Assembly (NCBI RefSeq): GCF_013409595.1
Contig: NZ_JACCBD010000001.1
Coordinates: 2,976,001-3,040,000 of the forward strand
DNA length: 64,000 nt
From: Leucobacter aridicollis
GTDB taxonomy: Bacteria; Actinomycetota; Actinomycetes; Actinomycetales; Microbacteriaceae
Direction: 5' to 3'
The first letter of the stretch is position 1; every line of letters begins with the position of its first letter. The translations under genes were made by a program, and so were the position numbers. Under the pieces are notes generated by a model that saw only the letters and a list, made by a program, of their open reading frames with translations, had not been told where the DNA came from and made no database searches. This document shows positions 2,549 through 33,691 of this stretch, one piece after another.

Positions 2549-4450
2549 ATGCCGACAACGCTGCAGACCATCGTGTTCCCGGTGTCGCAGGACCCCGACG
2601 TCCTGCCGCTCTACGCCGACTCCGAGACTTGGACTAAGGTCGGCACCAGGCCGATCCGACTGAGCAACAACGCGAGCATCGATAACGTGCTCTCGCGCTC
2701 AAGCGCGCAGGTGCGTGCCGGCCAGCGCGTCTCGTTCGCGAGCTACTTCAACGCATTCCCGGCTGCATATTGGCAACGCTGGACCGTCGTCACGAGCGTC
2801 ACGCTCTCGCTGCGCACGACCGGCCGCGGCACGATCATCGTCTACCGGTCGAACGCGAACGGTGTGCCGCAGCGCGTCGCGTCACACCAGGTCTCGGGCT
2901 CCGAGTCGACCACTTTCGACCTCCCCCTCACCTCGTTCAGTGACGGCGGCTGGTACTGGTTCGACCTCATCGCGAGCACCGAGGACCTCGTGCTCGACGG
3001 CGGCGAGTGGTCGACCGCCGCAGAGCCGGTGCAGACCGGCAAGCTGAGCCTCGGCATGACCACGTACAACAAGCCCGACTACTGCGTCGCCACGCTCGCG
3101 AACATCGCCGAGAACCCGGCGCTCGTCGCGGGGATCGACCGGATCTTCCTCGTCGACCAGGGTACGCAGAAGGTGCGCGACGAAGCCGGCTTCGACGAGG
3201 TCGCGGCCGCGCTCGGCGAGCACCTGCAGATCATCGAGCAGGGCAACCTCGGAGGTTCGGGCGGGTTCTCCCGCTCCATGTCCGAGACGCTCGAGCGCGA
3301 GGACACCGACTTCCTGCTGCTGCTCGATGACGACATCGAGTTCGAGACCGAGAGCGCGCTGCGTGCGCTGCAGTTCGGCCGGTTCAGCCGCGAACCTGTC
3401 ATCGTGGGCGGCCACATGTTCGACCTGCTCGACAAGCCCGTCATGCACGCGTGGGCAGAGGTCGTGCGGCCCGACCCGTTCATGTGGGGGCCGTCGTTCG
3501 AGGAGCAGCACCGCCACGACTTCCGCAACCGCAACCTGCGCCAGACGAAGTGGATGCACGCGCGACTCGACTCCGACTACAACGGCTGGTGGATGTGCAT
3601 GATCCCGAAGCAGGTCATCGCCGAGATCGGGCTCGCGCTCCCCGTCTTCATCAAGTGGGACGACGCCGAGTACGGTCTGCGCGCAAAGGCAGCCGGCTAC
3701 CGCACGGTATCGCTGCCCGGCGTCGCCCTCTGGCACGTGTCCTGGCTCGATAAGGACGACTCACAGGACTGGCAGGCCTTCTTCCACACCCGCAACCGGC
3801 TCATCGCTGGCCTGCTGCACTCCGACAGGCCGAAGAGCGGGAAGCTGCTGCAGAACAGCGGCCGCCAGGACATCAAGAAGCTGCTGAACATGCAGTACTA
3901 CGCGACCCAGCTCGCGGTGGACGGCATGCGCGCCGTGCTCCGCGGCCCGGCGTCACTCCACGACGACATCTCGTGCGACATGCCTGCCGCCCGCGGGCGA
4001 GCGAAGGACTTCCCCGAGACTCGCGTGTACCGGCCCGGCGACCCCGAGACCCCCGTGTCGCTCGGTGGCCGCGCCCTGCCAGAGCTCGCTGAGAAGCCGA
4101 AGGGCCCGACCGGGATCCGGCTCGCCCTCTTCACGCTCAGGATGGTGCCCCAGCACTGGCGGCGGGCGACGGTGCCAGAGGGCGAGCAGCCGGGCCTCGA
4201 GTACGCGAAGCAGGGCGCGCACTGGTGGCAGATCCCGCACCATGCAAACGTCATCGTCGGCGCCGCCGACGGCAGCGGCAAGATGTGGTACCGCCACGAC
4301 CGCGCGAAGTTCCGCCGGCTCCTGCGCGAGTCCCGCAGCCTGAGCAAGCAGATCGAAAAGAACTGGGACGCGCTCTCGTCCGAGTACCGCGCGGCGCTGC
4401 CCCAGATGACCTCGGTCGAGGAGTGGCGCAAGACGTTCGAGGGGCGCTAG
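2549..4450 (+). CDS. glfT2: Galactofuranosyltransferase GlfT2-like
   Basis: A 633-residue GT2 enzyme that would extend galactan chains using UDP-galactofuranose on the cytoplasmic membrane face. The layout matches mycobacterial GlfT2: an N-terminal beta-rich domain (about 1-160), then a GT-A domain starting LSLGMTTYNKPDYC, the metal-binding LLLLDDDIE with DDD at 260-262, the catalytic-base region IKWDDAEYG (D371-D372) and ALWHVSW (H395), followed by a helical C-terminal region. Positions of DDD, Asp and His nearly coincide with those known in the M. tuberculosis enzyme. glf, which makes its donor, is convergent at 6173-7312. GlfT1-like enzymes are at 28.8 and 38.9 kb and a Wzm/Wzt exporter at 31.7 kb, so the whole galactan set is in the window. 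Confidence is high. Confidence 0.93.
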   Translation: MPTTLQTIVFPVSQDPDVLPLYADSETWTKVGTRPIRLSNNASIDNVLSRSSAQVRAGQRVSFASYFNAFPAAYWQRWTVVTSVTLSLRTTGRGTIIVYRSNANGVPQRVASHQVSGSESTTFDLPLTSFSDGGWYWFDLIASTEDLVLDGGEWSTAAEPVQTGKLSLGMTTYNKPDYCVATLANIAENPALVAGIDRIFLVDQGTQKVRDEAGFDEVAAALGEHLQIIEQGNLGGSGGFSRSMSETLEREDTDFLLLLDDDIEFETESALRALQFGRFSREPVIVGGHMFDLLDKPVMHAWAEVVRPDPFMWGPSFEEQHRHDFRNRNLRQTKWMHARLDSDYNGWWMCMIPKQVIAEIGLALPVFIKWDDAEYGLRAKAAGYRTVSLPGVALWHVSWLDKDDSQDWQAFFHTRNRLIAGLLHSDRPKSGKLLQNSGRQDIKKLLNMQYYATQLAVDGMRAVLRGPASLHDDISCDMPAARGRAKDFPETRVYRPGDPETPVSLGGRALPELAEKPKGPTGIRLALFTLRMVPQHWRRATVPEGEQPGLEYAKQGAHWWQIPHHANVIVGAADGSGKMWYRHDRAKFRRLLRESRSLSKQIEKNWDALSSEYRAALPQMTSVEEWRKTFEGR

Positions 4451-6172: not shown

Positions 6173-7333
<1,161 letters not shown>

Positions 7334-8865: not shown

Positions 8866-10293
8866 TCAGTTCCTCGCGAAGCTTTGGAAGGAACCGACGG
8901 ACTCCGATTGCCACACACGTGCTTCAGGTGTGCTGTGCGGAGCGTCACCGGAGGCAATCCGGTTAGCAAATAGCGCAAGCGAACTGTCGTCGCTGATCCG
9001 GTCCGGAAACATCTTGGCCGACGAATAATGGTCGGCGAGGTCCGTTTCGATGACACCGATATGAACTCCGAACGCCAACGCCTCATAGAGCACGGTGCTC
9101 ACCATTCCGATCACCGCTTTGGAGTTCGAAATCGAACTGTTGACTTCCGACTGCACGTCGACCTCAACACCGTCATCCAGCAATGCGGCGTAGAGCTCGT
9201 TGACCGTGGCGCGCTCCGAGGGGTGAGGACGGAACACCACTTGCCAGTGGTCGGGCAGCTGACGCCGGAGCGACTGGGTCACAGAAATCAGGCGTTCGCG
9301 CTCCATGATGCTCGACACCACAAGCACCCTGGGTGGCCGTTTCTCATACGGCACTGCCACTCGGGCGGCTTCCTCAAGCGAGGGCTTGCCAACGGGAATC
9401 ACGCGCCCCGGAAAACGTACCTCCTCGCCCCAATATTCTCCAAAGGTCAACAACGTATCGGGCAAGCATGCCAGCAGCTCAGGGCGGCGCATGACAGCAC
9501 CAAAGTTGTATGCAGCATGGGAGGCGCCAATCCACCCATGCTGGAGCTCGGCGACTTCGATACCTCGCTCATGGGCGATGCGGATGAGGTTTGAACGGTC
9601 CCCATACGCCGCGGTCTGCATATAGATTCTGCGTGGGCGAGTCCTCTCCAGGAGTCCCCGAAACTCTCTGGCCACGTGTGGCAAACGGTTGACACGGTAG
9701 ACCACCTGGGTGTGCACTCGCGAGCGAAGCCGTTCCGAAAGCTGCCGCGAGAACGGGGCAAGCATGTCCGCCATGATGCTGTCGAACTGAGAAAGCTCTT
9801 TGGCCGCTAGCGGCTCGAGGCGCGTCCGCTGGTCAACCCGCCGCAACGCTCGCGAGAATGACCAGGTTCGAGCCACAAGGGGACGCTCAGACCTCGGCCC
9901 CCCATAGCGAAGCGGAGCGTCTTGCACGACTGCGGCTCGCTCGTCGAGCGCCGTTGCATACGAGTCGGTCAGCCAGTTCCCCACTCCTCCCAGAGTCTCC
10001 ACTCGCGTTGTGCCAGACACGATAAAAAGATGCTCAACGGGCTCTCTCAGACGGTCTGACGAGACGGGAGTGGGCACCATCCCGAGTGCATGCTGCACCA
10101 GTGCCTTCGGCCGCGACGGACGCTTCCTCGGAACGCTCGTGACGTTAAGGCCCTCTTCTGACAGCGCTCGCGCAAGCGGCCAACGCACGAGCGGCCAGAG
10201 AAGCGCATCAGTGCCCGGTACCGTCTCCAGCAGCAACTCCGAAGCTTCGTCCTCCACCTCTAGTAGCGCACGAACCGTCGGCGTGTCCTCCAT
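8866..10293 (-). CDS. Putative GT-B glycosyl/glycerophosphotransferase-like protein
   Basis: A 475-residue soluble protein whose C-terminal half looks like CDP-glycerol glycerophosphotransferase/capsule transferase enzymes: VAELQHGWIGASH (LQHG motif), RPPRVLVVSS, VVFRPHPSER (the RPHP motif) and SKAVIGMVSTVLYEALAFG (the G.S...EA nucleotide-binding motif). The N-terminal half is poorly conserved and hard to name. It probably transfers a sugar or polyol phosphate in the cytoplasm during surface-polymer synthesis. ATG 10293 is preferred over GTG 10299 because GGGGAAG sits 7 nt upstream. It follows the GT at 10370-11515 on the same strand with a gap of about 75 bases. The exact donor and acceptor are unknown. 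Confidence 0.7.
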   Translation of the reverse strand: MEDTPTVRALLEVEDEASELLLETVPGTDALLWPLVRWPLARALSEEGLNVTSVPRKRPSRPKALVQHALGMVPTPVSSDRLREPVEHLFIVSGTTRVETLGGVGNWLTDSYATALDERAAVVQDAPLRYGGPRSERPLVARTWSFSRALRRVDQRTRLEPLAAKELSQFDSIMADMLAPFSRQLSERLRSRVHTQVVYRVNRLPHVAREFRGLLERTRPRRIYMQTAAYGDRSNLIRIAHERGIEVAELQHGWIGASHAAYNFGAVMRRPELLACLPDTLLTFGEYWGEEVRFPGRVIPVGKPSLEEAARVAVPYEKRPPRVLVVSSIMERERLISVTQSLRRQLPDHWQVVFRPHPSERATVNELYAALLDDGVEVDVQSEVNSSISNSKAVIGMVSTVLYEALAFGVHIGVIETDLADHYSSAKMFPDRISDDSSLALFANRIASGDAPHSTPEARVWQSESVGSFQSFARN

Positions 10294-10369
10294 AGTCACT
10301 CTTCCCCTCTAATGTTTGACGCGGCCATCGGCAGTTTTTGAACCGAGATCAATGCCAGTGTCGCTCAGC

Positions 10370-17090: not shown

Positions 17091-19871
17091 TCAGTCTTGT
17101 TCGGCTGCTAGCCCCTCCGCAGCTGACGGCTCGGGCGGCGACACTTCGGTCGGCTCGGGCGGCAGACCTTCGGTCGGCTCGGGTGAGGGCTCCACCTCGG
17201 CCTTCGCTGCGCTCGACTTTGGAACAAACACCACGGGTGACGGCGGTGCCAGAACCGCGTTACCGTTCTGGAACGGCACAGCCTTCCCGCTGCCAACAGC
17301 GAACCCCGGACCAGCAGGCCACCCCCACGGACCCGTCGGACCACCAGACTTCTCATACGCCGACAAATACGCACTCGGGCTAAACGCCAACGGCTTGCCA
17401 TACGGGCCGTAGTACACCGTCTGACGAGCGAACACCTGATACGTGCCCTGACCATCAACGACGACAGTATCCTTCACCGGGAAGCCAGTGGCACCCTTCG
17501 GACCACCGCTCGCAACCCACTTATCGAAGGTCGCCGTCTGCATGAACGCAGCAACACCAGTGCTCGAGGAATACACCGCATTGCCCTTCTGGAACGGCAC
17601 AGCCTTCCCGCTGCCAACAGCGAACCCCGGACCAGCAGGCCACCCCCACGGACCCGTCGGACCACCAGACTTCTCATACGCCGACAAATACGCACTCGGG
17701 CTAAACGCCAACGGCTTGCCATACGGGCCGTAGTACACCGTCTGACGAGCGAACACCTGATACGTGCCCTGACCATCAACGACGACAGTATCCTTCACCG
17801 GGAAGCCAGTGGCACCCTTCGGACCACCGCTCGCAACCCACTTATCGAAGGTCGCCGTCTGCATGAACGCAGCAACACCAGTGCTCGAGGAATACACCGC
17901 ATTGCCCTTCTGGAACGGCACAGCCTTCCCGCTGCCAACAGCGAACCCCGGACCAGCAGGCCACCCCCACGGACCCGTCGGACCACCAGACTTCTCATAC
18001 GCCGACAAATACGCACTCGGGCTAAACGCCAACGGCTTGCCATACGGGCCGTAGTACACCGTCTGACGAGCGAACACCTGATACGTGCCCTGACCATCAA
18101 CGACGACAGTATCCTTCACCGGGAAGCCAGTGGCACCCTTCGGACCACCGCTCGCAACCCACTTATCGAAGGTCGCCGTCTGCATGAACGCAGCAACACC
18201 AGTGCTCGAGGAATACACCGCATTGCCCTTCTGGAACTTCATCGCGGCACCGCCGCTGACCGTGATGGCCGATACCGGCCATCCCCAGGTCTGCACCGTC
18301 GATTCAGACGACACAAACCGTTCAAAAATTCCGGCCGGAACGAAGACCTGTGCGCTTGCGGATGTCTGGACCATCCCGCCCTTCTCAGTGCGCCGATAGC
18401 TCTTACCTGCGAAGGGTGTCCGATCTGCGTTCGCGAGCCCGACAACGGGGTACCCGCCAAGCGCAGTCCAGGTCTTCAGCTCCGCGGCATCGAGCACCGC
18501 GGTTCCGTTCCTGGACACCATCAGTGTTCCCCCTTGGAAGAGCTGGGAAGCGGCAGTGCTGGAGTGAAGTGTGGCGTCCTTCGATGGAAATCCAAGCGGA
18601 CCCTTCTGCTCTCCACGCGCCTTCCAAGCGTTGAACACCAGCGTTGGCATGTATCTCATGACCACATTCTTGGGATCGTAGACCGTGGTCCCGTGCTGGA
18701 ACGAGGCGCGATAGTTCCCGTTCGCTGCAACGCCGGAGATCCCGCTCGCGAGGAATCCCCAGGAACCTGACGCTCCGCCCGCGGCGAGATAGGCGTCCAT
18801 CATCCAGCCACGAAGAATACCGAAACTCTTCCCGAGCAACTTGGACTCTGTAATGATTCCGTTCTCAAATTCCATCTGAAAACCGCCACCATTCTTAGTA
18901 ACGGTGACTCGTGCACCCAGCGGGTTCCCATAGTTGAAGCCGGAAGCAAGCGCTTGGTCGTATACCTGTCGAATCCCGGGCGACATTTGGTCGTCGATGA
19001 CCGTGGATCCAAACCAGGTGTTCCAGAGGATAAAGAAGTTGCGGTTGCCGTACGACGAACACGCATCGCCCGTTCCGGAGCCCGCCCGGAGCGCGGCCTG
19101 GTTCGGCTGATATGGCGTGTAAATGTACAGGGCAGCTGTGGCCCAGTTCTCGATGTACACGTTGGACCCACCGCACGACTGCTTCGGATGCCACTGGATG
19201 AAGTTCTTTTTCAGTGGTTTGTAGTTGTACGAGTCTGAGAATGCACGGTACACCTGGAGCTGCCACGCGGCTCGATACACTTGCTGAAAGAATCCGCCCT
19301 GTTTCGGGTCACATGCCGCTGTGCCGCCTGGCCCGCTGTCCGGACACGCGTATCCCATCGCCATGAAGTACTGATTCTCATTCGGCCACGGATCGGTAAT
19401 CAGGCTCTGCTCTTTCTCGAGCATCACGAGGAGGACGCGAGGGCTGATCCCACACGCGGCCCCCACCTTGGCGATAATCGCCGCGGCCTTCTCATTGGGA
19501 GCGCCAGTGTAGGCCTTGCAGTACGCATTCGCGGGGCGTGAAGCCGTCGTCACCGTATAGTCGCGCGTGCACTTCGACGCGAGCTTGGTTGGCCCGTTCC
19601 AGGTGACCGGTTTGCCAACCTCATAACCCGGACGCCCAAGCCAACACTCCGGCACGCGTTTATTCAAAAATGACTGCACTTCAGCAGTGGTCATCCCGGC
19701 CCCGTTATAGAAGAGCCCGTCGTCAACGATATTTCCGGCCTTGAAATCCATTGCACTCCACGCGTTGGCTGGAGTTACGCTTCCGGTCACCGTCAAGGAG
19801 GAGCCAGCGAGGATCACGCTGGCCGACAGCGCCGCCACAACGATCGCCCAAAACCGCTTTTTCGTCGCCAC
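17091..19871 (-). CDS. Secreted LGFP-repeat cell-wall protein
   Basis: A 926-residue exported protein. It has a signal peptide (KKRFWAIVVAALSASVIL to about residue 37, VTPANA/WS), then a conserved-looking N-terminal domain of about 250 residues with several cysteines and GISPRVLLVMLEKEQSLI, then LGFP-type repeats (GPLGFPSKD, GPKGATGFPVKD, GGPTGPWGWP). Residues about 547-868 are three identical 107-residue units. The tail is Pro/Glu-rich (PSPEPTEGLPPEPTE) without LPxTG. LGFP repeats occur in actinobacterial wall proteins and are thought to bind wall polysaccharide; the N-terminal domain may be lysozyme-like but I cannot name it. GTG 19871 follows AAGGTGA. Lying inside the galactan and glycan locus, it may bind the polymer made here. 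Confidence 0.88.
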   Translation of the reverse strand: MATKKRFWAIVVAALSASVILAGSSLTVTGSVTPANAWSAMDFKAGNIVDDGLFYNGAGMTTAEVQSFLNKRVPECWLGRPGYEVGKPVTWNGPTKLASKCTRDYTVTTASRPANAYCKAYTGAPNEKAAAIIAKVGAACGISPRVLLVMLEKEQSLITDPWPNENQYFMAMGYACPDSGPGGTAACDPKQGGFFQQVYRAAWQLQVYRAFSDSYNYKPLKKNFIQWHPKQSCGGSNVYIENWATAALYIYTPYQPNQAALRAGSGTGDACSSYGNRNFFILWNTWFGSTVIDDQMSPGIRQVYDQALASGFNYGNPLGARVTVTKNGGGFQMEFENGIITESKLLGKSFGILRGWMMDAYLAAGGASGSWGFLASGISGVAANGNYRASFQHGTTVYDPKNVVMRYMPTLVFNAWKARGEQKGPLGFPSKDATLHSSTAASQLFQGGTLMVSRNGTAVLDAAELKTWTALGGYPVVGLANADRTPFAGKSYRRTEKGGMVQTSASAQVFVPAGIFERFVSSESTVQTWGWPVSAITVSGGAAMKFQKGNAVYSSSTGVAAFMQTATFDKWVASGGPKGATGFPVKDTVVVDGQGTYQVFARQTVYYGPYGKPLAFSPSAYLSAYEKSGGPTGPWGWPAGPGFAVGSGKAVPFQKGNAVYSSSTGVAAFMQTATFDKWVASGGPKGATGFPVKDTVVVDGQGTYQVFARQTVYYGPYGKPLAFSPSAYLSAYEKSGGPTGPWGWPAGPGFAVGSGKAVPFQKGNAVYSSSTGVAAFMQTATFDKWVASGGPKGATGFPVKDTVVVDGQGTYQVFARQTVYYGPYGKPLAFSPSAYLSAYEKSGGPTGPWGWPAGPGFAVGSGKAVPFQNGNAVLAPPSPVVFVPKSSAAKAEVEPSPEPTEGLPPEPTEVSPPEPSAAEGLAAEQD
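17266..18228. repeat. Three perfect 321-bp tandem repeats inside the LGFP protein gene
   Basis: Units begin at 17266, 17587 and 17908, each 321 bp. I see no difference between the three copies over their length, and about 10 more matching bases follow to 18238. Each encodes 107 residues (two LGFP motifs). Such identity indicates recent duplication or gene conversion; copy number may vary between strains or be mis-assembled. Confidence 0.95.
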
Positions 19872-20002: not shown

Positions 20003-20740
20003 CTATTTCTCCTCGACAAGCCCGACGTTGCGAGGAAGATCCGCTGCGGTTCGAGAAAGCGAGGGCTGCTGCGCGAGCAACTTCAGAACGTCGTCTTGGC
20101 CAAACTCCGGGTTCGACGCATACAACTGCTCGTAAACACGCTCCACGAAGACAAAGTCTTCGGGAACGTCAACCGTCCACCGGAGATCAGAGTGATCTGT
20201 GCCCTGTTGTACGTTCCAAGTCGTGAATTCCTCTGTTCGCCGATACATACCAAGGGTGACGTGCTCACGCTCGGAAGCCGTCAACGGAGAGTCCGCCAAG
20301 CGGGCGAACGCAGCAGGTGAGAATACCTCCACGTCGAGACCATGTGGAAAAGTCGGCACCAGCACATTCGATGTGTAGTCGGTCTTGTAGAGCAAATGCT
20401 CGTCGATGACACGATCGATGACGCCGGGGTCGGCAAGCGGGCAATCTGCAGTCAGGCGCACGACTTGATCAGGTTCGAACTCGGCGATGACCCGCGCAAA
20501 CCTGCCCAGAACGTCATCGAGCGGGCCGCGGCGAACCTCCCAGCCGTTTGTCGCAAGCAGCAGGGCGAGCTGGTCGTCTGATGCTTCTTCGGAAGTCGCC
20601 ACGACGAGCCGATCAATGTTTTTGCTGCGCGCGAGCCGCTCTAGCTGGCGCAGAATCATCTCCTTCCCAAGGAGCGGCTCGAGAACCTTCCTCGGGAAGC
20701 GCGACGAACTTGAACGTGCTTGCAGGATTCCAAGAATCAT
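20003..20740 (-). CDS. pseF: SpsF/PseF-type cytidylyltransferase (CMP-nonulosonate synthetase)
   Basis: A 245-residue nucleotidyltransferase that would activate a nonulosonic acid with CTP. Features: the N-terminal ILGILQARSSSSRFPRKVL (AR..S.R.P.K nucleotide-binding motif), RLVVATSEEASDD, VRLTADCPLADPGVID (metal-binding Asp), FPHGLDVEVFS and LRWTVDVPEDF. This is the spore-coat SpsF family, one member of which acts as PseF in pseudaminic acid loci. The position downstream of pseC and near pseI supports that role. ATG 20740 has AAAGGA upstream. It follows pseC by 79 nt on the same strand. CMP-pseudaminate as product is inferred from context. Confidence 0.82.
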   Translation of the reverse strand: MILGILQARSSSSRFPRKVLEPLLGKEMILRQLERLARSKNIDRLVVATSEEASDDQLALLLATNGWEVRRGPLDDVLGRFARVIAEFEPDQVVRLTADCPLADPGVIDRVIDEHLLYKTDYTSNVLVPTFPHGLDVEVFSPAAFARLADSPLTASEREHVTLGMYRRTEEFTTWNVQQGTDHSDLRWTVDVPEDFVFVERVYEQLYASNPEFGQDDVLKLLAQQPSLSRTAADLPRNVGLVEEK

Positions 20741-20819
20741 CGGTGCCTGTCCTTTATCTTTTCTTGGGGTTGAGCAACGCTGCTAGCCGTCGCCTACTTG
20801 TCGCTCTGCGCCACCTTGA

Positions 20820-21944
20820 CTACCTCATGGCAGTGAGGAGCGTATCGATAACATCATCGACCTGCGCATCGGAAAGCCCCGGGAAGATTGGCAGCGAGAG
20901 CTCTTCAGCGTAGAACGACTCAGCGTTCGGGCACATGCCCCGCTTGTAACCCTGCTCTGTGTAGACCGGGTGCCAATAGACGGGCATGTAGTTGACCTGC
21001 ACACCGATTCCCGCAGCGCGCATCTTGTCAAACACTTCCCGCCGGCGCCCGCCTTCCACACGGAGCGGGTACAGATGCCAGACAGGATCCACGTCGTCAC
21101 GCTGCGTCGGAATGCGTACACCGTCAACGTCACTCAGTGCAGCGTTGTATCTCGCTGTGATTTCCGCCCGACGCCGTTTGAAGGCTTCCAGGCGCTGCAA
21201 CTGCGACAGGCCGAGTGCGCTGGCGATATCGGGGAGTCTATAGTTCAGCCCGAACTCGTGGACCTCTTGGTGCCATGGTCCTTCGGTCGTGATCCTAAAC
21301 CGATCGGGATCACGCACGAGGCCGATGTAGTGGAACTCATGAGCACGCTGGGCTAAGACCGGGTCCTTCGCAACGAATGCTCCGCCCTCTCCTGTCGTCA
21401 GGTTCTTTGTCGGGAAAAACGAAAAGGTCGTCATGTCGGCCAGGTCTCCGACCGGCCGTCCACGATAGCTTCCCCCAATTGAGTGGGCGGCGTCGTCAAG
21501 GGTAAGCGCCCCTACGGAGTCGGCAAGTGACTGAAGCGCGTCGTAGTCGGCGGGGTGCCCAGCATAGTCGACCGCAGCAATCACCTTGGTCCGGTCGCTT
21601 AACTGAGCTGCGACCGCACTCGGATCGATGAGTCCGGTGTCCTCTTCAACATCTGCGAAGCGCACCCTGGCACCAAGCATTGACGCCGCGGCGGTGGTCG
21701 CGATGAAGGTCATGGGGGTTGCCACGACTTCATCCCCGGGGCCAATTCCCGCTGCGGCGTATGCCATATGCAGCGCAGCAGTCCCCGAGGTGGCGGTAAC
21801 CGCACGGTGTCCGCCAGAGAGACGCGATATCTCGGATTCGAGCGCAGCGACGGCGGGACCAGTCGTCAGCCAGTCACCACGAAGGATCTCTACAACCGCG
21901 GAGATGTCGTCCTCGGATATTGACTGCCTACCGTAGGGAAGCAT
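20820..21944 (-). CDS. pseC: UDP-4-amino-4,6-dideoxy-N-acetyl-altrosamine transaminase (PseC)
   Basis: PLP-dependent aminotransferase for the second step of pseudaminic acid synthesis. The 374-residue product begins LPYGRQSISEDDISAV, the usual PseC N-terminus, with GDWLTTGP, ATSGTAALHMAYAAAGIGPG, TLDDAAHSIGG, FSFFPTKNLTTGEGG (Lys180 as Schiff base) and a C-terminal NYMPVYWHPVY followed by GY, also PseC-like. ATG 21944 lies 2 nt after the pseB stop, so the two are translationally coupled. The longer upstream frame overlaps pseB and is not used. Confidence 0.93.
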   Translation of the reverse strand: MLPYGRQSISEDDISAVVEILRGDWLTTGPAVAALESEISRLSGGHRAVTATSGTAALHMAYAAAGIGPGDEVVATPMTFIATTAAASMLGARVRFADVEEDTGLIDPSAVAAQLSDRTKVIAAVDYAGHPADYDALQSLADSVGALTLDDAAHSIGGSYRGRPVGDLADMTTFSFFPTKNLTTGEGGAFVAKDPVLAQRAHEFHYIGLVRDPDRFRITTEGPWHQEVHEFGLNYRLPDIASALGLSQLQRLEAFKRRRAEITARYNAALSDVDGVRIPTQRDDVDPVWHLYPLRVEGGRRREVFDKMRAAGIGVQVNYMPVYWHPVYTEQGYKRGMCPNAESFYAEELSLPIFPGLSDAQVDDVIDTLLTAMR

Positions 21945-21946
21945 GC

Positions 21947-22936
21947 TTAGATTCCAGCCTGAATAATGTCGGCAATCTCCTGCTGGGTGAACCACTGATC
22001 GTTGAGATCCGAGCGGTACGCGAAGCCTTCAGCGACTGGAATCGCATCAGCAGGCGGCTCGTAACCCCACGTGGCAAGATCGGGTTGGATCACGAAGTAC
22101 TTCCCGCCCTGAATCGTCACCGCTCGACGCCCCTCCTCAGGGCTGATCATCTCCTCGTGCAGCTTCTCGCCGGGACGGAGCCCAACATCAACTAGCTCCG
22201 CGCCCGGAACCACTGCGTGGGCCAGATCAACGACTCGCATCGACGGAATGCGCGGGACTAGCAGCTCGCCGCCCTGCATCAGCTCGAAAGCGTCAACCAC
22301 CATCTGTACTGCGTCGGGCAGGGTGATGAAGAACCGGCTACAGCGCAGGTCCGTGATGGGCAGCGGCTGACCAGCAGCGCCCAGCTTCGCAAAGAATGGG
22401 ATGACGGAGCCCCGCGATCCCATCACGTTGCCGTAACGGACAACAGCGAACCTCGTGTCGTACGCCGCAGCGTAGTGGTTACCAGTAATAAAGAGTTTGT
22501 CGGCAGTCAACTTCGTCGCACCATATAGATTGATGGGGCTCGATGCCTTGTCTGTCGATAGCGCCACAACCTTCTTGACACCGGCGTCGATGGAAGCCTC
22601 GATAACGTTCTGACTTCCAATGATGTTTGTCTTTACGAATTCGAACGGATTGTATTCGGCGGTGTCCACCTGCTTGAGGGCTGCGGCGTGGACGACGTAG
22701 TCAACTTTGTGCAGAGCTCTCGCCAGCCGGCGCTCATCCCTGATATCGCCCAGGAACCACCGCAGTCGCGGATCATCGTTGAACTGCTGTCGCACCTCAT
22801 ACTGCTTGAGCTCATCCCGTGAGAACACAATGAGTCTGCGCGGATTCAAGTTGTCGAGAGCGTATCGGATGAAGGCCTTGCCGAAAGAACCAGTACCTCC
22901 GGTAATGAGGATCGTGGACCCCTCAAGTATCGACAC
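21947..22936 (-). CDS. pseB: UDP-N-acetylglucosamine 4,6-dehydratase (inverting), PseB
   Basis: Short-chain dehydrogenase-fold enzyme that removes water from UDP-GlcNAc and inverts C5, the first committed pseudaminic acid step. The 329-residue product shows ILITGGTGSFGKAF (NAD-binding), FSRDELKQYEVRQQF, ALKQVDTAEYNPFE, STDKASSPINLYGATK with Asp129, Lys130, Tyr138 and Lys142 matching the PseB active site, GNVMGSRGSV and RPGEKLHEEMIS. Length and motifs match PseB closely. GTG 22936 is preceded by GAGGAGAACAC. It is divergent from the pseG-pseH fusion with 120 nt between starts, and coupled to pseC downstream. Confidence 0.95.
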   Translation of the reverse strand: MSILEGSTILITGGTGSFGKAFIRYALDNLNPRRLIVFSRDELKQYEVRQQFNDDPRLRWFLGDIRDERRLARALHKVDYVVHAAALKQVDTAEYNPFEFVKTNIIGSQNVIEASIDAGVKKVVALSTDKASSPINLYGATKLTADKLFITGNHYAAAYDTRFAVVRYGNVMGSRGSVIPFFAKLGAAGQPLPITDLRCSRFFITLPDAVQMVVDAFELMQGGELLVPRIPSMRVVDLAHAVVPGAELVDVGLRPGEKLHEEMISPEEGRRAVTIQGGKYFVIQPDLATWGYEPPADAIPVAEGFAYRSDLNDQWFTQQEIADIIQAGI

Positions 22937-23056
22937 GTGTTCTCCTCATTCCTGCGCCAAGTCCGAGAGCTGGCGACATCCGTCGTAGTGCGTGCGAACT
23001 ATTCTATCGTTAGGGTACGCCCCTCAGCCGTAATGCTCCGCGCGAGAGGAAAATCA

Positions 23057-24595
23057 ATGGCAGCACACACTGCACTCATTCACTGCAACGCCGATTTAGA
23101 GCGCGGCATGGGGCATCTGATGCGGGCGTTGTGCCTAGCTGAAGAGGCCTCCTCGCGGGGGTGGAGTGTTGACATTGCCGGCCGGTTCGGTGACCGCGCG
23201 GTCGAGCACGTTGACGAGCTGTTTCCCGGACAGAGCCTCATCCAGCTCGATGCTTCCGAACCGCGCCGCGACCTGCAGCGTCTCCTCTCCGAACGATCTG
23301 TGGACGTACTCCACATCGACAGCTACGACACAGCCCTCGACGGGTTCTTCCCCGGCGCCACGTTGACGAGCAACATGCAGGACGGTCAGTTCGGGCGTCG
23401 CCCCGCGGATCTCCACGTGGACGGAAACCTCGACGCCGAGCTCCGCTACGTCCCCAGCGGTCAGGCGGATCTCGCCCTACTCGGAGCATCTGTTGTCCAG
23501 ATCCGAAAAACGATGCGCGCGATTTCTCACCGAGTGCGGCCGGAGGCGGAACTGCGCAAGCGCGTACTCGTCGTCCTTGGTGGAACAGATCCGTTCGATG
23601 TCACGCCACAGATTGTTGAGGGCCTGTTACAGCTCCCCAACGTCTCCCTCACGGTCATCTGCCGTCCTGAAGTGCAGCCCGCGCTCCGCCGGTCCCTCGG
23701 CGATTCCGCAGGCCGCGTCAACATTCTCTCGTTCACGAGCGACCTCCCACGCCTCGCCGACTCGATGGATGCCGTAGTGACTGCTGCAGGCACCTCAGTG
23801 TGGGACTTCGCCGCAGCCGGGATCCCCATGGGGATAGTCGCCGTCACCGAAAACCAGCTACCTGGCTACAGGTCATGCGAGGCTCACGGGATCGGCTTTC
23901 CGCTCGGAACCCCGCCATACGGTGACATTCCCAACAGACTCGAAGCTTTCGCAGACTTCCTGGATGACACCGCGCGTTTGAGCGAAAGCGCCGAGCTGGG
24001 AAGGACACTCATCGACGGGCGCGGGGCCTGGCGCGTCGTCTCGGCGTGGGAAGAGCTTCTTGCTGCCGGTGCCCACTCGGCTCGGGTGGAGGAGCCTGTG
24101 AAGCTCGCTGCTCGAGTCGCCAAGCTCTCCGACGCCGAGTTCCTCTTCGACTGGCGGAACGACCCTGTCACCAGGCAGGTATCGCGCTCCCAAGAACCAG
24201 TTACCTGGCCTGATCACCGTGCATGGCTAGAACGTGTTGTGGCTGACGAGAATCGCCGCTTACTCATAATTGAAAAGGCGGGCACACCGGTCGCGACCGT
24301 GCGTTGGGATCGCCGCGGGGTGACGTCGTGGGAGGCCTCAATCACGATCGCCCCGACGTCTCGGGGGCGCGGCATCGGCAAGGGTGCGCTGGCCGCAGGC
24401 GAAGATTGGCTCGTGAGCGCAGAACCCGTGCAACTCCTCGCGACGATCCACTCGTCGAATACTGCATCCCAGCGGCTTTTTCGAGGAGCGAAATACCTGC
24501 CGTACCTGCCTGCAGACAAGGACGGATTCGAGATGCGGTCCAAATGGAAGCTTCCCACCGAGGGCCACGCAGCCCTCGGCGACTCACCATCCTGA
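23057..24595 (+). CDS. pseG-pseH: PseG-PseH fusion: UDP-sugar hydrolase and N-acetyltransferase
   Basis: A 512-residue bifunctional enzyme. Residues about 1-340 are PseG-like: IHCNADLERGMGHLMRAL (catalytic-type His20), HIDSYD, GGTDPFDVT (175-183), AVVTAAGTSVWDFAAAGIPM and ENQLPGY, which release the sugar from UDP. Residues about 345-500 are a GNAT domain: LSDAEFLFDWRNDP, and the acetyl-CoA loop RGRGIGKGAL (436-445), as in PseH, which acetylates the 4-amino group. In many bacteria these are separate genes; here they form one chain. ATG 23057 is chosen because AGAGGA lies about 8 nt upstream; the frame extends 40 codons further but without a good site. It is tail-to-tail with pseI, 3 nt apart. 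Confidence 0.9.
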   Translation: MAAHTALIHCNADLERGMGHLMRALCLAEEASSRGWSVDIAGRFGDRAVEHVDELFPGQSLIQLDASEPRRDLQRLLSERSVDVLHIDSYDTALDGFFPGATLTSNMQDGQFGRRPADLHVDGNLDAELRYVPSGQADLALLGASVVQIRKTMRAISHRVRPEAELRKRVLVVLGGTDPFDVTPQIVEGLLQLPNVSLTVICRPEVQPALRRSLGDSAGRVNILSFTSDLPRLADSMDAVVTAAGTSVWDFAAAGIPMGIVAVTENQLPGYRSCEAHGIGFPLGTPPYGDIPNRLEAFADFLDDTARLSESAELGRTLIDGRGAWRVVSAWEELLAAGAHSARVEEPVKLAARVAKLSDAEFLFDWRNDPVTRQVSRSQEPVTWPDHRAWLERVVADENRRLLIIEKAGTPVATVRWDRRGVTSWEASITIAPTSRGRGIGKGALAAGEDWLVSAEPVQLLATIHSSNTASQRLFRGAKYLPYLPADKDGFEMRSKWKLPTEGHAALGDSPS

Positions 24596-24598
24596 ACC

Positions 24599-25660
24599 TT
24601 ACAAAAGGTCCCAGGTCAACGCTGTTCCTCGCGAAACGTCTTGCGAGAACGTCCGGCCGGCCACGAGGTCGAAGCTGTCGGCAGGCAGACCCCCGGCCGG
24701 ACGGATAGAGCGCACATTCTGGCTGGAGACTTGTTCGCCCGCTACGACATCGGTGACGACGTAGAGCGATCGCCGGAGTGCGAGGACCGCCCGCTCCTGC
24801 TCGGTGGGCCCGAACGCCACGCCGCTCTGAACCGCTACTCTGGCCTGCTCCGCCCCCGTCACAAGTGCAGCAAATTCAGCTGGCGTCAGAGAGAAGTCTG
24901 AGTCGACTCCCCCATCGGCACGGTCAAGCGTCAAATGCTTCTCGATGACCGTCGCGCCCAAAGCGGCTGCTGCGACGGCGACTCCAGTACCGAGCGTGTG
25001 ATCAGAAAGCCCGACGGGAACATCGAACGCTTCACGGAGCACTTGAATGTTGCCCAGCCGTGCTTCCTCCGGTTCGGCTGGGTATGCCGCAGTGCACGCC
25101 AACAGCACGAGTTCCTTGCACCCGGCATCACGCATCGCGGTCACCGCGGCATCAATTTCGGAGAGCGTTGCCATCCCCGTCGACACAACCACAGGCTTGC
25201 CTGTTCGGGCGACCTCGCGCAGGAGGGGAAGATCGACAATCTCCGCGGAAGCGGTTTTGTAGAGCTCGACGCCGAGATCTTCGAGGAACGCCACGGACGT
25301 TGGGTCAAAAGGGGTTGAGAATGGAATGAGGCCGTGAGACTTTGCGCGGCTGAAGATCTCTTTGTGCCATTCCCAGGGCGTATGCGCCTCTTGGTAAAGG
25401 GAGTACAGGTTTCGATCTCCCCACAGGCCGTGGTCTCCCCGCACGCGGAACGCTGGAGCGTCTGAATCGATCGTGAGCGTATCCGCGGTATAGGTCTGAA
25501 TCTTGAGCGCGTGTGCCCCGGTCGAACCGACAGCATCGACAATGTCAAGCGCTCTGTTCAGGTCGCCGTTGTGGTTACCCGACATCTCGGCGATCGTGAA
25601 GACTGGGTTGCCGTGCCCGATTACTGCGCTCGAGAGAGAAATATGCTGAGTTGCGCTCAT
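24599..25660 (-). CDS. pseI: Pseudaminic acid synthase (PseI/NeuB family)
   Basis: Condenses 6-deoxy-altrose diacetamido sugar with phosphoenolpyruvate to give pseudaminic acid. The 353-residue product has the NeuB-type TIM barrel: FTIAEMSGNHNGDLNRAL, ALKIQTYTADTLT (typical of PseI), IPFSTPFDPTSV, ELYKTASAEI, PVVVSTGMATLSEI, GLSDHTLG and EKHLTLDRADGGVDSDFSL, followed by a SAF domain (RSLYVVTDVVAGE, then VRSIRPAGGLP) at the C-terminus. PseI-type rather than sialate or legionaminate synthase is favoured by these motifs and the PseB/C/G/H neighbours. ATG 25660 sits 7 nt after TAATCT. The stop is 3 nt from that of pseG-pseH. Confidence 0.93.
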   Translation of the reverse strand: MSATQHISLSSAVIGHGNPVFTIAEMSGNHNGDLNRALDIVDAVGSTGAHALKIQTYTADTLTIDSDAPAFRVRGDHGLWGDRNLYSLYQEAHTPWEWHKEIFSRAKSHGLIPFSTPFDPTSVAFLEDLGVELYKTASAEIVDLPLLREVARTGKPVVVSTGMATLSEIDAAVTAMRDAGCKELVLLACTAAYPAEPEEARLGNIQVLREAFDVPVGLSDHTLGTGVAVAAAALGATVIEKHLTLDRADGGVDSDFSLTPAEFAALVTGAEQARVAVQSGVAFGPTEQERAVLALRRSLYVVTDVVAGEQVSSQNVRSIRPAGGLPADSFDLVAGRTFSQDVSRGTALTWDLL

Positions 25661-25667
25661 TTGGCCT

Positions 25668-25673
25668 AGATTA
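25668..25673 (-). promoter_or_regulatory. -10 hexamer TAATCT for pseI (leaderless)
   Basis: On the minus strand TAATCT is followed by seven bases and ATG 25660. Confidence 0.45.
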
Positions 25674-25737
25674 CCTCTATTTCTTCTGCCGAGGGGAGTA
25701 GGTGCGCTCGGGCGCTCCCGCTGAGGCATATTTCTGC

Positions 25738-29845: not shown

Positions 29846-30052
29846 TCAGTTGTTGGGCTGGTCTACGGCCTGCCCGGGGTAGCCCGGGGTGAGTCGCGTC
29901 TCGATGAGGTCGAGCATCTCGGCGACCCGAAGGCTATCGCGGCGAACCTCGTCGAGCTCTCGCTCAAGTTCATCCACGCGTACCGCCAGTTGGCGGCTTC
30001 GAAATAGCGTATTCAACACTCGCTGTGAAAAGCGCTGGCGCTCCTGCATCAT
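29846..30052 (-). CDS. Small coiled-coil protein, translationally coupled
   Basis: A 68-residue protein with a predicted coiled coil in the middle (LAVRVDELERELDEVRRDSL, then RVAEMLDLIETRL) and no membrane segment. I do not recognise it. It is supported as real by its position: its ATG 30052 overlaps the stop of the LicD-methyltransferase gene (ATGA) and it ends 18 nt before the downstream GT2. The heptad-like helix suggests a protein-protein role in this three-gene operon, perhaps linking the transferases. Confidence 0.6.
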   Translation of the reverse strand: MMQERQRFSQRVLNTLFRSRQLAVRVDELERELDEVRRDSLRVAEMLDLIETRLTPGYPGQAVDQPNN

Positions 30053-31596
30053 TGGTTCTCCTTGCCAGAATTACGGTTCTCGGAAAAGCGGACTCCGTAT
30101 GGTCGCCGATGTTGTTCTTCGGGGGACGCGGCAATCTCCGATATCTCCGCGTGCAGCCCGAAGTCTGCTGCACGATCTTGCAGCACCTCGGGCGGAATTG
30201 CCCAGTCTGTGGGGTTCTCATGCGGATCCGCACTCTCGATTTCGCCATAGAGCGTTGCAGCCGCGGTTCCGCCCGACCGGACGGCCATGCGGATGAGTCG
30301 CAGTGCATTCGGAATCGCGTGTGGGCCGAGGTGTTGAATGAGATGATTCGCGACGAGGTCGAAGGGACCCCTGATTTCAGCGTCCTGTGGCAGCGCTAGC
30401 GCAAGACTCCGATAGAGGTTCGTGTGAATCGTCGAAAAGCGCTCAGGACCGTGTGCCGCCGCAAGTTCAAGCGCATACGGCGAGTAGTCTGCCGCGATGA
30501 CCTGACGGTGCGGCCCACGGTCCCGCAATTGTGCCCCGAGCGCCCCAGCCCCTGCACCGAGGTCCACGAGCCACCCGCCGGTGAAATCGGACTCCTGAGA
30601 GAGAATCCAGTCAGCCCCGCTCTGCCACTGGCGGTCACTATCCGCCCCTTCAACACGGTAACGGTCATTCCAGAAGTCCCGTGAGTGGTGAAACGAGCCA
30701 AACCAATTGCGGAATCGTCGAACTGTGGGGAGTGGTGTTTCGAGCCGGTAGCCGGGAATCGGAGTGCGCCAATTCTCGTCGTAGTTGATGACGAGCCAGG
30801 CCTCGGGGTCGGCTGGTGCGGGGAATGACCGCCCTTGTATTTGCACGGTACCAAACGGGAGCATCTGCTCTTCGCGCATCTCACCGCGCACGTGGAACGG
30901 TTGGTTCATGTGGCCGTCGTCGGTGAAGAACGCCGTGAACACATCAACGTAGTAGTCGAGTTGCCCGTGCTCTCCCCGGAAGTAGAGCTGCATGTGGGTG
31001 GCGCTGTGGCGAACGAGTTCGTAGCCGAGAGCCTCAAGCTTGTGCCCCAGGGCGAAGCCCTCGGCGGCAACGTCCACGGGGTTCGTATGCGTGGAGAGAT
31101 ACGCGACGTCAGCGTCGTCGTCGTGCGGAAGCAGCGCACCGTCCCTGATGCCGCCGAGGAGGGTGCCGCCCACGACGAACGGACGCAATCCAAGCCCCTC
31201 GAGATGGGCAATGACCTCGGTGGTGCGGTCGAGGATTCGTCCCTGCACGCCCGTATTTCCGGCCTCAAGCGTCTTCCCCAGCCTGCCCCACTTATTGATG
31301 GCGAGCGGAACTCCGTCTGCATCGGTCACGCGCGGCTCGGAGGGGTCCTCCGTAAAACGCACCTCAACAGAGCCAAGTAGCCGCCCGGTCCCGGACTGCG
31401 AGAGACGGACATTCGTTCGGCCAACGAGATACGGCAGTAGTGGTGCCGGCCACGGATAGGACCGGTCCTGCGGAACGTTACCCGAGCTGAGATCAATCGA
31501 CCACACGCGATGATCTGCAAAACTGACGTCCACTGAAAGCACTCCTGCTTCGAGCGGCGGCAGCGTCACCCCAGCGGACGTAACCGCAAAAGACAT
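30049..31596 (-). CDS. LicD-like phosphotransferase fused to SAM-dependent methyltransferase
   Basis: A 515-residue two-domain protein. Residues about 100-300 resemble the LicD/fukutin nucleotidyltransferase-fold family: RPFVVGGTLLGGIRDGALLP, HDDDAD (158-163, metal-binding) and YYVDVF (Asp218). LicD proteins transfer phosphocholine or polyol phosphate to glycans. Residues about 335-500 form a class I methyltransferase (WLVDLGAGAGALGAQL at 343-357, then VIAADYSPYALELA). The first 100 residues are a beta-rich region of unknown role. Fusion suggests that a substituent is both transferred and methylated. ATG 31596 is preceded by TAGGGGG. Substrate unknown. Confidence 0.8.
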   Translation of the reverse strand: MSFAVTSAGVTLPPLEAGVLSVDVSFADHRVWSIDLSSGNVPQDRSYPWPAPLLPYLVGRTNVRLSQSGTGRLLGSVEVRFTEDPSEPRVTDADGVPLAINKWGRLGKTLEAGNTGVQGRILDRTTEVIAHLEGLGLRPFVVGGTLLGGIRDGALLPHDDDADVAYLSTHTNPVDVAAEGFALGHKLEALGYELVRHSATHMQLYFRGEHGQLDYYVDVFTAFFTDDGHMNQPFHVRGEMREEQMLPFGTVQIQGRSFPAPADPEAWLVINYDENWRTPIPGYRLETPLPTVRRFRNWFGSFHHSRDFWNDRYRVEGADSDRQWQSGADWILSQESDFTGGWLVDLGAGAGALGAQLRDRGPHRQVIAADYSPYALELAAAHGPERFSTIHTNLYRSLALALPQDAEIRGPFDLVANHLIQHLGPHAIPNALRLIRMAVRSGGTAAATLYGEIESADPHENPTDWAIPPEVLQDRAADFGLHAEISEIAASPEEQHRRPYGVRFSENRNSGKENQ

Positions 31597-31682
31597 GGAA
31601 CCCCCTACTCCGAGCTACTCACGACGAGTACCGCGCGACTTACATGGTAGTCCCCTTCATCAGGAGTGCAGCTATCGGCCGG

Positions 31683-31688
31683 TAGACT
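31683..31688 (+). promoter_or_regulatory. -10 hexamer TAGACT for wzm/wzt (leaderless)
   Basis: TAGACT is followed by seven bases and GTG 31696, in the divergent region with the LicD-fusion gene. It supports GTG 31696 over the upstream GTG 31666. Confidence 0.5.
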
Positions 31689-31695
31689 GGACTTT

Positions 31696-32562
31696 GTGAG
31701 CGCAAATGCGATTCTGAACGATCCAGACTTTACGAAACCGGGGACCGACAGCGGCCTCCTCGGTGTCTTCCGTCACAGGCATCTCCTGTCACTCCTCCTG
31801 AAGAAGGGCGTCGCCACCCGCTATCACGGGTCGGCGCTCGGCTGGGTGTGGTCATACATTCGACCGGCCGCACAGTTCATCATGTACTCGATCGTGGTCG
31901 GAATCCTCATGGGCGGCCGAGACGACATTACGTCGTTCCCCGTCTATCTTTTCACTGGGATCGTCGCGGTCAACCTGTTCAGCGAGACCCTCCGCAACAC
32001 GACGAGCGCGATCACTGACAACAAGTCGCTCGTCAAGAAGATTTACCTGCCCCGCGAACTCTTCCCGATAGCCGCGCTCGGCGTCGCCCTGATTCACTTT
32101 CTCCCCCAGGCGGCATTGCTATTGGCAGTCGTTCTACTGTTCGGCTGGACGTTCAGCTGGGTTGCCGTGCTTTCGTTTGTCGCCGGCGTGATCCTCATCC
32201 TCATCTTCTCACTCGGTCTCGGGCTGTTCTTCGGCGCCATCAATGTCGCCTATCGCGACGCCAAGAACTTTGTCGACCTCATCCTGATGTTCGCGACGTG
32301 GGCATCGCCCGTGCTCTACACGTGGAGCATGGTTGCGACGCATGCCCCGAACTGGCTCTATCAGATTTATATGGTGAATCCGATGACCGCCGCTGTGGAG
32401 CTTTTCCATACGGCATTCTGGGCCCCGATCGCACCGAACGACGCGCGTCCGCCGGAGATCATTCTTCACACACTTATTGCTGCCGGCATCGCAATCGCAA
32501 CGCTTGTGATCGGCCAGCTTACGTTTAGGAAATTGGAGGGCAGCTTTGCCCAGCATCTCTGA
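31696..32562 (+). CDS. wzm: ABC-2 type polysaccharide exporter permease (Wzm/TagG-like)
   Basis: A 288-residue membrane permease with six hydrophobic helices. The N-terminal amphipathic RHLLSLLLKKGVATRYHGSA followed by LGWVWSYIRPAAQFIMYSI is diagnostic of Wzm/TagG permeases. It exports undecaprenyl-linked polymer together with the ATPase encoded immediately downstream, whose TTG start overlaps this gene by 17 nt. In mycobacteria the homologue (Rv3783) exports galactan. The glf/glfT2/GlfT1-like set here supports the same cargo. GTG 31696 is chosen for the leaderless promoter and the usual N-terminal length. Confidence 0.93.
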   Translation: MSANAILNDPDFTKPGTDSGLLGVFRHRHLLSLLLKKGVATRYHGSALGWVWSYIRPAAQFIMYSIVVGILMGGRDDITSFPVYLFTGIVAVNLFSETLRNTTSAITDNKSLVKKIYLPRELFPIAALGVALIHFLPQAALLLAVVLLFGWTFSWVAVLSFVAGVILILIFSLGLGLFFGAINVAYRDAKNFVDLILMFATWASPVLYTWSMVATHAPNWLYQIYMVNPMTAAVELFHTAFWAPIAPNDARPPEIILHTLIAAGIAIATLVIGQLTFRKLEGSFAQHL

Positions 32563-33691
32563 CTCAGCGCCGCAGACGCCCCCAAAGAAGCCGGTCATCG
32601 TTTTCAACGACGTCAGCAAGACCTTCCGGATCAAGCATGCGCACTCGTTCAAGCAGGCGTTTATCTCGAAGATCAAGCGGAAAGAGCTTTCGACTGATTT
32701 TCACGCAGTGGACGGCGTGAGCTTCAAGGTGCCTGAGGGCCAATCGGTGGCCCTCATGGGCCGGAACGGCTCGGGCAAGTCGACTACCCTGAAGCTCCTT
32801 TCTGGCGTCATGGATCCCGACGCGGGTTGGATCCGCACTCGCGGCCGGATTGCCGGCCTCCTCGAGGTGGGCGCTGGCTTCCATCCCGATCTGACGGGTC
32901 GCGAGAACGTGTATTTGAATGCTGCAATCCTCGGAATGAGCAAGGAGGAGACCGACGCGCGCTTCGATGACATCCTTGAGTTCTCAGAGATCGGCGACTT
33001 CATCGATACCGAGGTAAAGCGCTACTCCTCGGGAATGTACGCGCGACTGGGGTTCTCCGTCGCGGTGCATACGGAGCTCGACACGCTGCTTGTCGACGAG
33101 GTGCTCTCGGTTGGTGATGCTGAGTTCCGTAAGAAGTGCGAGCAGCGCATGCTCGATCTCCAGGCGCAGGGCAAAACGATGTTCATCGTGAGCCACAACG
33201 CGAACCAGGTGCGAAAGCTCTGCACCCGCGGCATCGTGCTCGATCGCGGACGGGTTATCTACGATGGCCCGATCGACGAGGCAATCGTGCGGCTCCAATC
33301 CAACCCGGACTCGGTAGAGACCGCGTACCCGGTGTCAGGATCGATCTACGACGTGTACTCAGCGGACCCCGAAAGGTTTGGAGCTCCCACGGGTCCCGAA
33401 CAGGCAGTTGAGGGGCCAGAACCTGGCGTCTACCAAGAGTTCGAGTTTGGCGTGATCACGAGCTACGTTCCGCGGACGCGGGACGAACCCCTCACCATCG
33501 GGCTCGGCCGTGGGCACTTTCTCGCGATGTATATGAAGCACGGCGGCCCCTCCGGGCCGTGGGGGTTCATCCGTTCTCAGCCGACCGGTAGCCTCGAAGA
33601 TTTCGAGGAGCGGATCATGGAGTTCTCCAACGGCGTCGCACGTTTCACGCTCGACACGGGCATCCATTTCCACCCGCACGACGGCGGGTAG
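32546..33691 (+). CDS. wzt: ABC-2 polysaccharide exporter ATPase (Wzt/TagH-like) with C-terminal LGFP-like module
   Basis: A 381-residue ATPase powering polymer export. Residues 15-255 hold the nucleotide-binding domain: Walker A GRNGSGKST (72-80), GLLEVGAGFHPDLTGREN (typical Wzt gate-helix region), signature YSSGMYARLGF (160-170), Walker B TLLVDEVLSVGD and VSHN. The mycobacterial galactan ATPase ends near here at about 270 residues. This one continues about 110 residues, and 295-372 resemble LGFP repeats: VYQEFEFGVIT, then LAMYMKHGGPSGPWGF and MEFSNGVARF, very close to YEKSGGPTGPWGWP..VPFQKGNAVY of the wall protein at 17.1 kb. By analogy with the cargo-binding C-terminal domain of some Wzt proteins it may recognise the polymer. 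TTG 32546 has GGAGG upstream. Confidence 0.93.
   Translation: MPSISDSAPQTPPKKPVIVFNDVSKTFRIKHAHSFKQAFISKIKRKELSTDFHAVDGVSFKVPEGQSVALMGRNGSGKSTTLKLLSGVMDPDAGWIRTRGRIAGLLEVGAGFHPDLTGRENVYLNAAILGMSKEETDARFDDILEFSEIGDFIDTEVKRYSSGMYARLGFSVAVHTELDTLLVDEVLSVGDAEFRKKCEQRMLDLQAQGKTMFIVSHNANQVRKLCTRGIVLDRGRVIYDGPIDEAIVRLQSNPDSVETAYPVSGSIYDVYSADPERFGAPTGPEQAVEGPEPGVYQEFEFGVITSYVPRTRDEPLTIGLGRGHFLAMYMKHGGPSGPWGFIRSQPTGSLEDFEERIMEFSNGVARFTLDTGIHFHPHDGG

Follow-up and report, generated by a model that had tools for sequence, protein, structure and literature searches.

The locus analyzed here raises the question of what a domain from a family described as wall-binding is doing at the C-terminus of an exporter ATPase. 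The window, by which we mean the whole 64,000-nucleotide stretch of the Leucobacter aridicollis genome (G000) under study, encodes such a protein, and a first-pass annotation had proposed that its tail is an LGFP-like module that reads the galactan end inside the cell, while the same fold binds the finished polymer outside. To our knowledge, how Gram-positive exporters choose their wall polymer and time its export is little understood. The LGFP tail is a small, separable domain of known fold; if the proposal is true, a domain described as binding the wall would sit in the cytoplasm.

The protein is best explained as the ATPase half of a Wzm-Wzt wall-polymer exporter: its ORF (32546-33691, + strand; 381 aa) starts with a TTG codon and overlaps by 17 bases the end of the gene for its partner, a Wzm-type permease (31666..32562, + strand; ABC2_membrane, 1e-16); residues 1-250 (32546..33295, + strand) form the nucleotide-binding domain according to the Pfam match (ABC_tran over residues 56-186, E 2e-19), the motif positions (Walker A at residues 72-80, signature YSSGM at 160-164) and the predicted structure; and a Foldseek search with the ATPase returns A. 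aeolicus WzmWzt as the best matches, with TagH lower in the list. The ABC motifs, the Wzm partner and the fold of a Wzt-type polysaccharide-exporter ATPase are all present. A linker of ten residues (251-260; 33296..33325, + strand), variable among relatives in a 32-sequence alignment and modeled with a mean pLDDT of 59, joins the ATPase to the tail, and the placement of the two relative to each other is uncertain in the whole-protein model (pTM 0.58).

The tail consists of two predicted LGFP units: unit 1 (residues 261-323; 33326..33514, + strand; helices then strands) is delimited by Pfam LGFP and the tail model, and unit 2 (residues 324-378; 33515..33679, + strand; helix then strands) by the tail model and alignment. 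The module had been placed at residues 295-372; LGFP sequence does lie there, but the two units together span 261-378. The motifs on which that assignment relied sit where they had been reported, VYQEF at residues 295-299, MKHGGPSGPWGF at 330-341 and MEFSNGVA at 358-365 of Wzt, against TYQVF at 596, 703 and 810, EKSGGPTGPWGW at 626, 733 and 840 and VPFQKGNA at 651 and 758 of an LGFP wall protein encoded in the same window; the stretch GGPSGPWGF also falls within unit 2 of the Wzt tail.

Taken alone, the window tail has a marginal Pfam score. Against LGFP (PF08310, gathering cut-off 22 bits) the whole protein scores 18.0 bits (E 0.0037) and residues 261-381 alone 19.9 bits, both below the cut-off, and residues 259-381 alone score 22.1 bits (E 2e-4), barely above it; a six-frame Pfam search (E 0.001) of the genome did not list the tail among its LGFP matches, and the same search gave no LGFP match at all in six tailed genomes (G208, G302, G309, G315, G317 and G324). 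Such scores could point to an artefact, whether from a chance hit or from an error in the reading frame, but that reading is refuted by the orthologues, a shuffle control and a confident fold, and we give it practically no credence: there are 34 tailed proteins in 33 genomes, and each of the 32 tails scanned has an LGFP match with an E-value no worse than 0.01, the best being 6e-10; a profile of wall-protein LGFP pairs scores the Wzt tail at 62.7 bits, when none of 1000 shuffled tails exceeds 5.9 bits; and the tail modeled alone reaches a pLDDT of 95.3 and a pTM of 0.88. With plain Pfam LGFP, several orthologue tails score 25-38 bits and others are unmatched, and the six-frame genome search gave tails of 37.7 bits (G330) and 35.1 bits (G316).

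Structure comparison leads to the same family. A Wzt tail profile searched against the PDB hits mycoloyltransferase A of C. glutamicum (MytA, PS1) in two entries (1e-8 and 5e-7), with the following entry at 0.2, and Foldseek with the tail model finds 6swz/6sx4 (MytA) at E 3e-4 with TM 0.63-0.67 as the sole matches below 0.001 (next E 0.06). The model shows two rounds of helix plus strands, in agreement with the description of LGFP units as helix plus strands in the portion of PMC11299179 available to us. Wzt_C (PF14524) was not matched in the window Wzt by Pfam, and the same library detects it in the Wzts of locus L036 and genome G320. The tail is thus LGFP as judged both by sequence and by predicted fold, with its homologues settling an identity that its own score leaves marginal, and the Wzt tails as a group are, by their profile matches, divergent members of the family. 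The profile and structure checks that the first-pass annotation called for therefore bear out its central claim of an LGFP-like module on a Wzt-type ATPase.

The tail should be cytoplasmic, because no membrane segment follows the ATPase: no 19-residue stretch after residue 245 of the window Wzt exceeds a hydropathy of 0.42, which led us to reject a transmembrane or extracellular tail, and the maximum over all 32 tails is 0.93. The intracellular position assumed by the annotation is consistent with this hydropathy profile.

Tailed Wzts are a recurrent feature of the genus. Among 54 Leucobacter genomes, 52 have a Wzt match (E 1e-40) and 33 carry a window-type tailed Wzt, in 34 proteins as G316 has two; the annotation had suggested such a survey, which also uncovered a second tailed lineage. 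In G316 (L091, 6.0-15.5 kb), Wzm and LGFP-tailed Wzt occur twice in tandem; a LicD-methyltransferase gene and a GlfT1-like gene separate the copies, and an LGFP wall gene follows downstream. On the tree the ATPases of the two copies are neighbors, and their tails are visibly different. The second Wzt type, found in G308 and G319, is 43-46% identical to the window's over the matched part and has a clear LGFP tail (44-51 bits). The ATPases closest to it occur in 51 of 299 family genomes and 25 of 85 genera (E 1e-80), with alignments that stop at the end of the ATPase or shortly beyond it; from those 51 genomes 30 loci were read, and the 28 usable Microbacteriaceae sequences measure 234-259 residues and end soon after the ATPase. 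The ATPase tree groups the second type with these 28 sequences and away from the window's group (split support 1.0), and all 34 window-type tails fall in a clade with support 0.85; the alignment between tails of the two types is confined to the first unit (probability 87.8%, E 3e-6). As separate ATPase lineages bear LGFP tails, tails were acquired, whether anew or by transfer from one Wzt to another, on at least two occasions. They have also been lost or replaced, since of the 18 Leucobacter sequences that lack a tail 14 are nested inside the clade of the 34 tailed Wzts; examples are the syntenic Wzts of G327 and G345, which have no tail, second exporters that lack one, and the LRR_5 tail of a second Wzt in G341.

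Other Wzts carry other domains at the same place: Wzt_C in G320, also a Leucobacter (40.2 bits vs. cut-off 30.4), and in L036 from the Microbacteriaceae. Wzt_C in G338, guessed from the sequence, was rejected as Pfam gave no match. In G341 a second Wzt (L114:9098-10351, - strand), belonging to the untailed-paralogue group, has a BspA-type leucine-rich-repeat tail (LRR_5, 1e-24). The window's own genome encodes a second Wzm-Wzt exporter in a separate locus (L116; G000:C1:288068-288775, - strand), whose 249-aa Wzt has a 68% identical ATPase and no tail, so that the tail distinguishes two exporters of one cell. In a relative, locus L112 contains a sugar transferase (Bac_transf) from the same cluster.

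No tailed Wzt was recognized outside Leucobacter among the matches fetched in profile searches of family, order and class genomes. The window tail matched 8 of 299 family genomes (1e-4), seven of the genus and G106 (a 967-aa frame); tail profile A1 matched the window and otherwise frames assessed solely by their length (641-1089 aa) among 396 order genomes (1e-10), and eight others among 394 class genomes (1e-6); and the second-type tail profile A3 matched 81 of 396 order genomes (1e-5). ABC motifs were found in 0 of 40 LGFP ORFs checked from 37 loci of the class A1 and order A3 matches, and rare fusions may exist elsewhere.

Within the genus the tail is under purifying selection yet changes faster than the ATPase: mean identity over 496 pairs is 77% for the ATPase vs. 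42% for the tail, and dN/dS of the tail is 0.09-0.33 in the 7 of 11 close pairs whose synonymous sites in the tail are unsaturated. This is as a specificity domain would evolve.

We propose, by analogy and as a rather probable reading, that the LGFP pair is a cytoplasmic cargo-recognition domain. Cargo recognition suggests itself because the tail occupies, in line with the annotation's remark that some Wzts carry a C-terminal cargo-recognition domain, the position of the Gram-negative Wzt sugar-binding domain, which in the accessible parts of PMC9445017 and PMC11231755 is described as recognizing the chain cap (a chemically marked end) and losing it on ATP binding; MytA LGFP units, according to the part of PMC11299179 at hand, interact with peptidoglycan-arabinogalactan. 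The tail would catch the lipid-linked polymer in the cytoplasm, probably at or near its growing end, bring it to the channel mouth and release it once the two ATPase halves close on ATP, and export would be limited in this manner to the right or finished polymer. The untailed syntenic Wzts, the two units vs. five in MytA and the want of a conserved terminator count against cargo recognition. One strand of the fold, moreover, reads I-T in 29 of 32 tails vs. I-Y-W in the MytA alignment, so the MytA ligand may not carry over to the tails.

The window encodes a GlfT2-type galactofuranosyltransferase (2549..4450, + strand; Glft2_N 2e-34, GlfT2_domain3 1e-30), a UDP-galactopyranose mutase (Glf; 6173..7312, - strand; TIGR00031, 349 bits vs. 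cut-off 304), two GlfT1-like transferases that score under the GlfT1 cut-off, and a sugar-nucleotide enzyme set; the genes at 20003-25729 resemble what we take to be a pseudaminic acid synthesis set. GlfT2 is found in 32 of 54 Leucobacter genomes, and a hand tally gives 27 genomes with both tail and GlfT2, 6 with the tail only, 5 with GlfT2 only and 16 with neither, an association with a Fisher p of 4e-5 that ignores ancestry. G308 and G319 are counted as tail-less in this table on account of their second-lineage tail (counted as tailed, the cells are 27, 8, 5 and 14), and some of the genomes are incomplete; the missing GlfT2 of G305 may be an assembly gap, as its relative G304 has GlfT2.

That the tail reads galactofuranan specifically is nevertheless improbable. 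The GlfT2 and Glf genes of the window, the association just given and the reported contact of MytA LGFP with arabinogalactan-peptidoglycan (PMC11299179, in the part available) speak for it, against which stand six tailed genomes without a GlfT2 match, among them the two with the tails most similar to the window's (G324, 69% identity; G313, 59%), five GlfT2 genomes without a tail, including the syntenic G327 and G345, and an exporter far under the galactan-exporter cut-offs (Wzt, 158 bits vs. 400 for NCBIfam NF050108; Wzm, a weak 53.8 bits vs. 380 for galactan_ABC_perm). The best NCBIfam matches of the Wzt are instead TagH models, with NF010065 at 185 bits vs. a cut-off of 538. Because there are tailed genomes without a GlfT2 match and tailed loci with TagF-like genes, galactan is only a candidate cargo, as far as gene content indicates; the cargo named by the first-pass annotation is not supported in that form, its "galactan end" being a guess where the data reach only as far as a wall polymer or its end.

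TagF-like CDP-glycerol glycerophosphotransferase fusions, with membership assigned by clustering and one member per cluster tested by Pfam, were rejected as tail-specific partners, as 15 of the 32 tailed loci fetched contain them and so do 6 of the 18 untailed loci; a gene of the window suspected to be TagF-like (8866-10299) has no Pfam match. A pyruvyl transferase cluster occurs in five tailed loci. A LicD-like and methyltransferase fusion, divergent from Wzm (30049..31596, - strand; Methyltransf_25 4.5e-9; LicD 22.7 vs. cut-off 22.6 bits), is a candidate chain-end modifier; LicD-methyltransferase genes lie close to six of the 33 tailed loci (L076, L078, L079, L091, L104 and the window) as well as to 2 of 18 untailed ones (L109 and L118), and the fusion, which looked like a WbdD analogue, was rejected as a general tail partner on those counts. 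Across the 33 tailed loci we found no terminator enzyme that accompanies the tail consistently.

The tail could alternatively be a docking module for a biosynthetic enzyme, e.g. GlfT2 or a TagF-like polymerase, that couples synthesis to export with no sugar contact. The available portion of PMC10951656 proposes for mycobacteria that a GlfT2-exporter contact sets galactan length, and the tendency of tail and GlfT2 to co-occur (with the p-value above, blind to ancestry) fits such a role, as does the departure of the tails from the I-Y-W of MytA; since the GlfT2 match is missing from 6 of 33 tailed genomes, the transferases around tailed Wzts vary by species and the function described for LGFP is wall binding (PMC11299179, as far as accessible), we consider docking unlikely. 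Quite unlikely is a structural or regulatory appendix, such as a dimer contact or an ATPase brake, kept by history and conferring no cargo specificity: purifying selection on the tail, the second tailed lineage and the occurrence of Wzt_C or LRR_5 at the same place in other Wzts argue against it, even though tail-less relatives with an up to 76% identical ATPase exist, the untailed sequences within the tailed clade imply that the tail can be lost, and the tails vary greatly.

As the annotation had noted, the fold of the tail is also present at the same locus on a 926-aa LGFP protein (17091..19871, - strand), which has eight LGFP stretches (3e-31) and, by its hydrophobic N-terminus (19-residue hydropathy 2.1), is probably secreted. 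It contains three similar LGFP blocks at a spacing of 107 residues (TYQVF at 596, 703 and 810). Its first LGFP pair (residues 300-404; 18660..18974, - strand; tail profile 88.7 bits, E 7e-25) is the nearest relative that we found for the Wzt tail in this genome; with the tail profile run on the wall protein, this pair scores 82.7 bits vs. 31-33 bits for the later units (next best 32.7). In the window and in 17 of the 32 tailed loci fetched, the tail profile detects an LGFP wall protein within the stretch, compared to 5 of 18 untailed loci, and the wall-protein gene is directly downstream of the tailed Wzt in L091, L100 and L103.

We rejected a locus-by-locus co-evolution of the Wzt tail and the wall pair, as the tests, made on the 18 of 33 tailed loci with a wall-protein match, were not significant: own-locus tail-wall identity was not above cross-locus identity (0.300 vs. 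0.297, p 0.33), and the correlation of tail and wall distances (0.39, p 8e-4) fell to 0.14 (p 0.077) given the ATPase. The window's own wall pair ranks 8th of 18 for its tail, pairs from seven other loci being closer; in L091, L100 and L103, with the two genes side by side, the own pair ranks 1, 1 and 3, respectively, and in L092 it ranks 3. The best tail-profile score of the wall protein is 23-101 bits in the 18 tailed loci vs. 13-36 bits in 7 others (Mann-Whitney p 4e-4, a test that ignores ancestry), where the tail-likeness profile was built from the tails themselves and the comparison loci include L126 and L127 (second-lineage tail), L118 (cut by the stretch end) and L122 (a tailed Wzt close by in the genome). 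We tentatively suggest, as an idea more doubtful than cargo recognition as such, that the LGFP fold might serve on both sides of the membrane, the exporter pair certifying the wall polymer inside and the first wall-protein pair gripping the same polymer outside; the tail might then be a Gram-positive cargo-recognition domain of an origin independent of the Wzt_C jelly-roll.

LGFP and Wzt are each known; the pairing appears undescribed, as the annotation had supposed, in that none of 5.39 million open-access papers searched has both words. In the part of the cited work available to us (PMC9445017 and PMC11231755), the Wzt recognition domains described are Gram-negative jelly-rolls. Like the Wzts with Wzt_C (PF14524) of E. 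coli O8/O9a and A. aeolicus, the window protein belongs to a Wzm-Wzt exporter and has an extra cytoplasmic domain right after the ATPase for which a pre-export cargo check is proposed; unlike them, it has a tail of LGFP fold and not a jelly-roll, comes from a Gram-positive genus and is accompanied by no conserved chain terminator that we could find. By this analogy it most likely works like a Gram-negative sugar-binding Wzt, without belonging to the Wzt_C family. The LGFP domain of C. glutamicum MytA (PS1; 6swz, 6sx4) has the same fold by sequence profile and Foldseek; MytA, however, carries five units on a wall enzyme, whereas the window protein carries two on an ATPase, with I-T for I-Y-W in the 29 tails noted above. 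The mycobacterial galactan Wzm-Wzt (NF050108, NF050109) is likewise an ABC exporter, and the window shares galactofuranosyltransferase genes with that system, yet the mycobacterial Wzt is tail-less and short, as had been stated (the NCBIfam model is 244 aa and M. abscessus chains are 259-262 aa), and the window proteins lie far under both equivalog cut-offs. The teichoic acid exporter TagGH/TarGH is akin to the window's in that TagH models are the best NCBIfam match and TagF-like genes accompany nearly half of the tailed loci; the window ATPase stays under the TagH cut-off, and the C-terminal part of TagH appears to differ from the LGFP tail described here.
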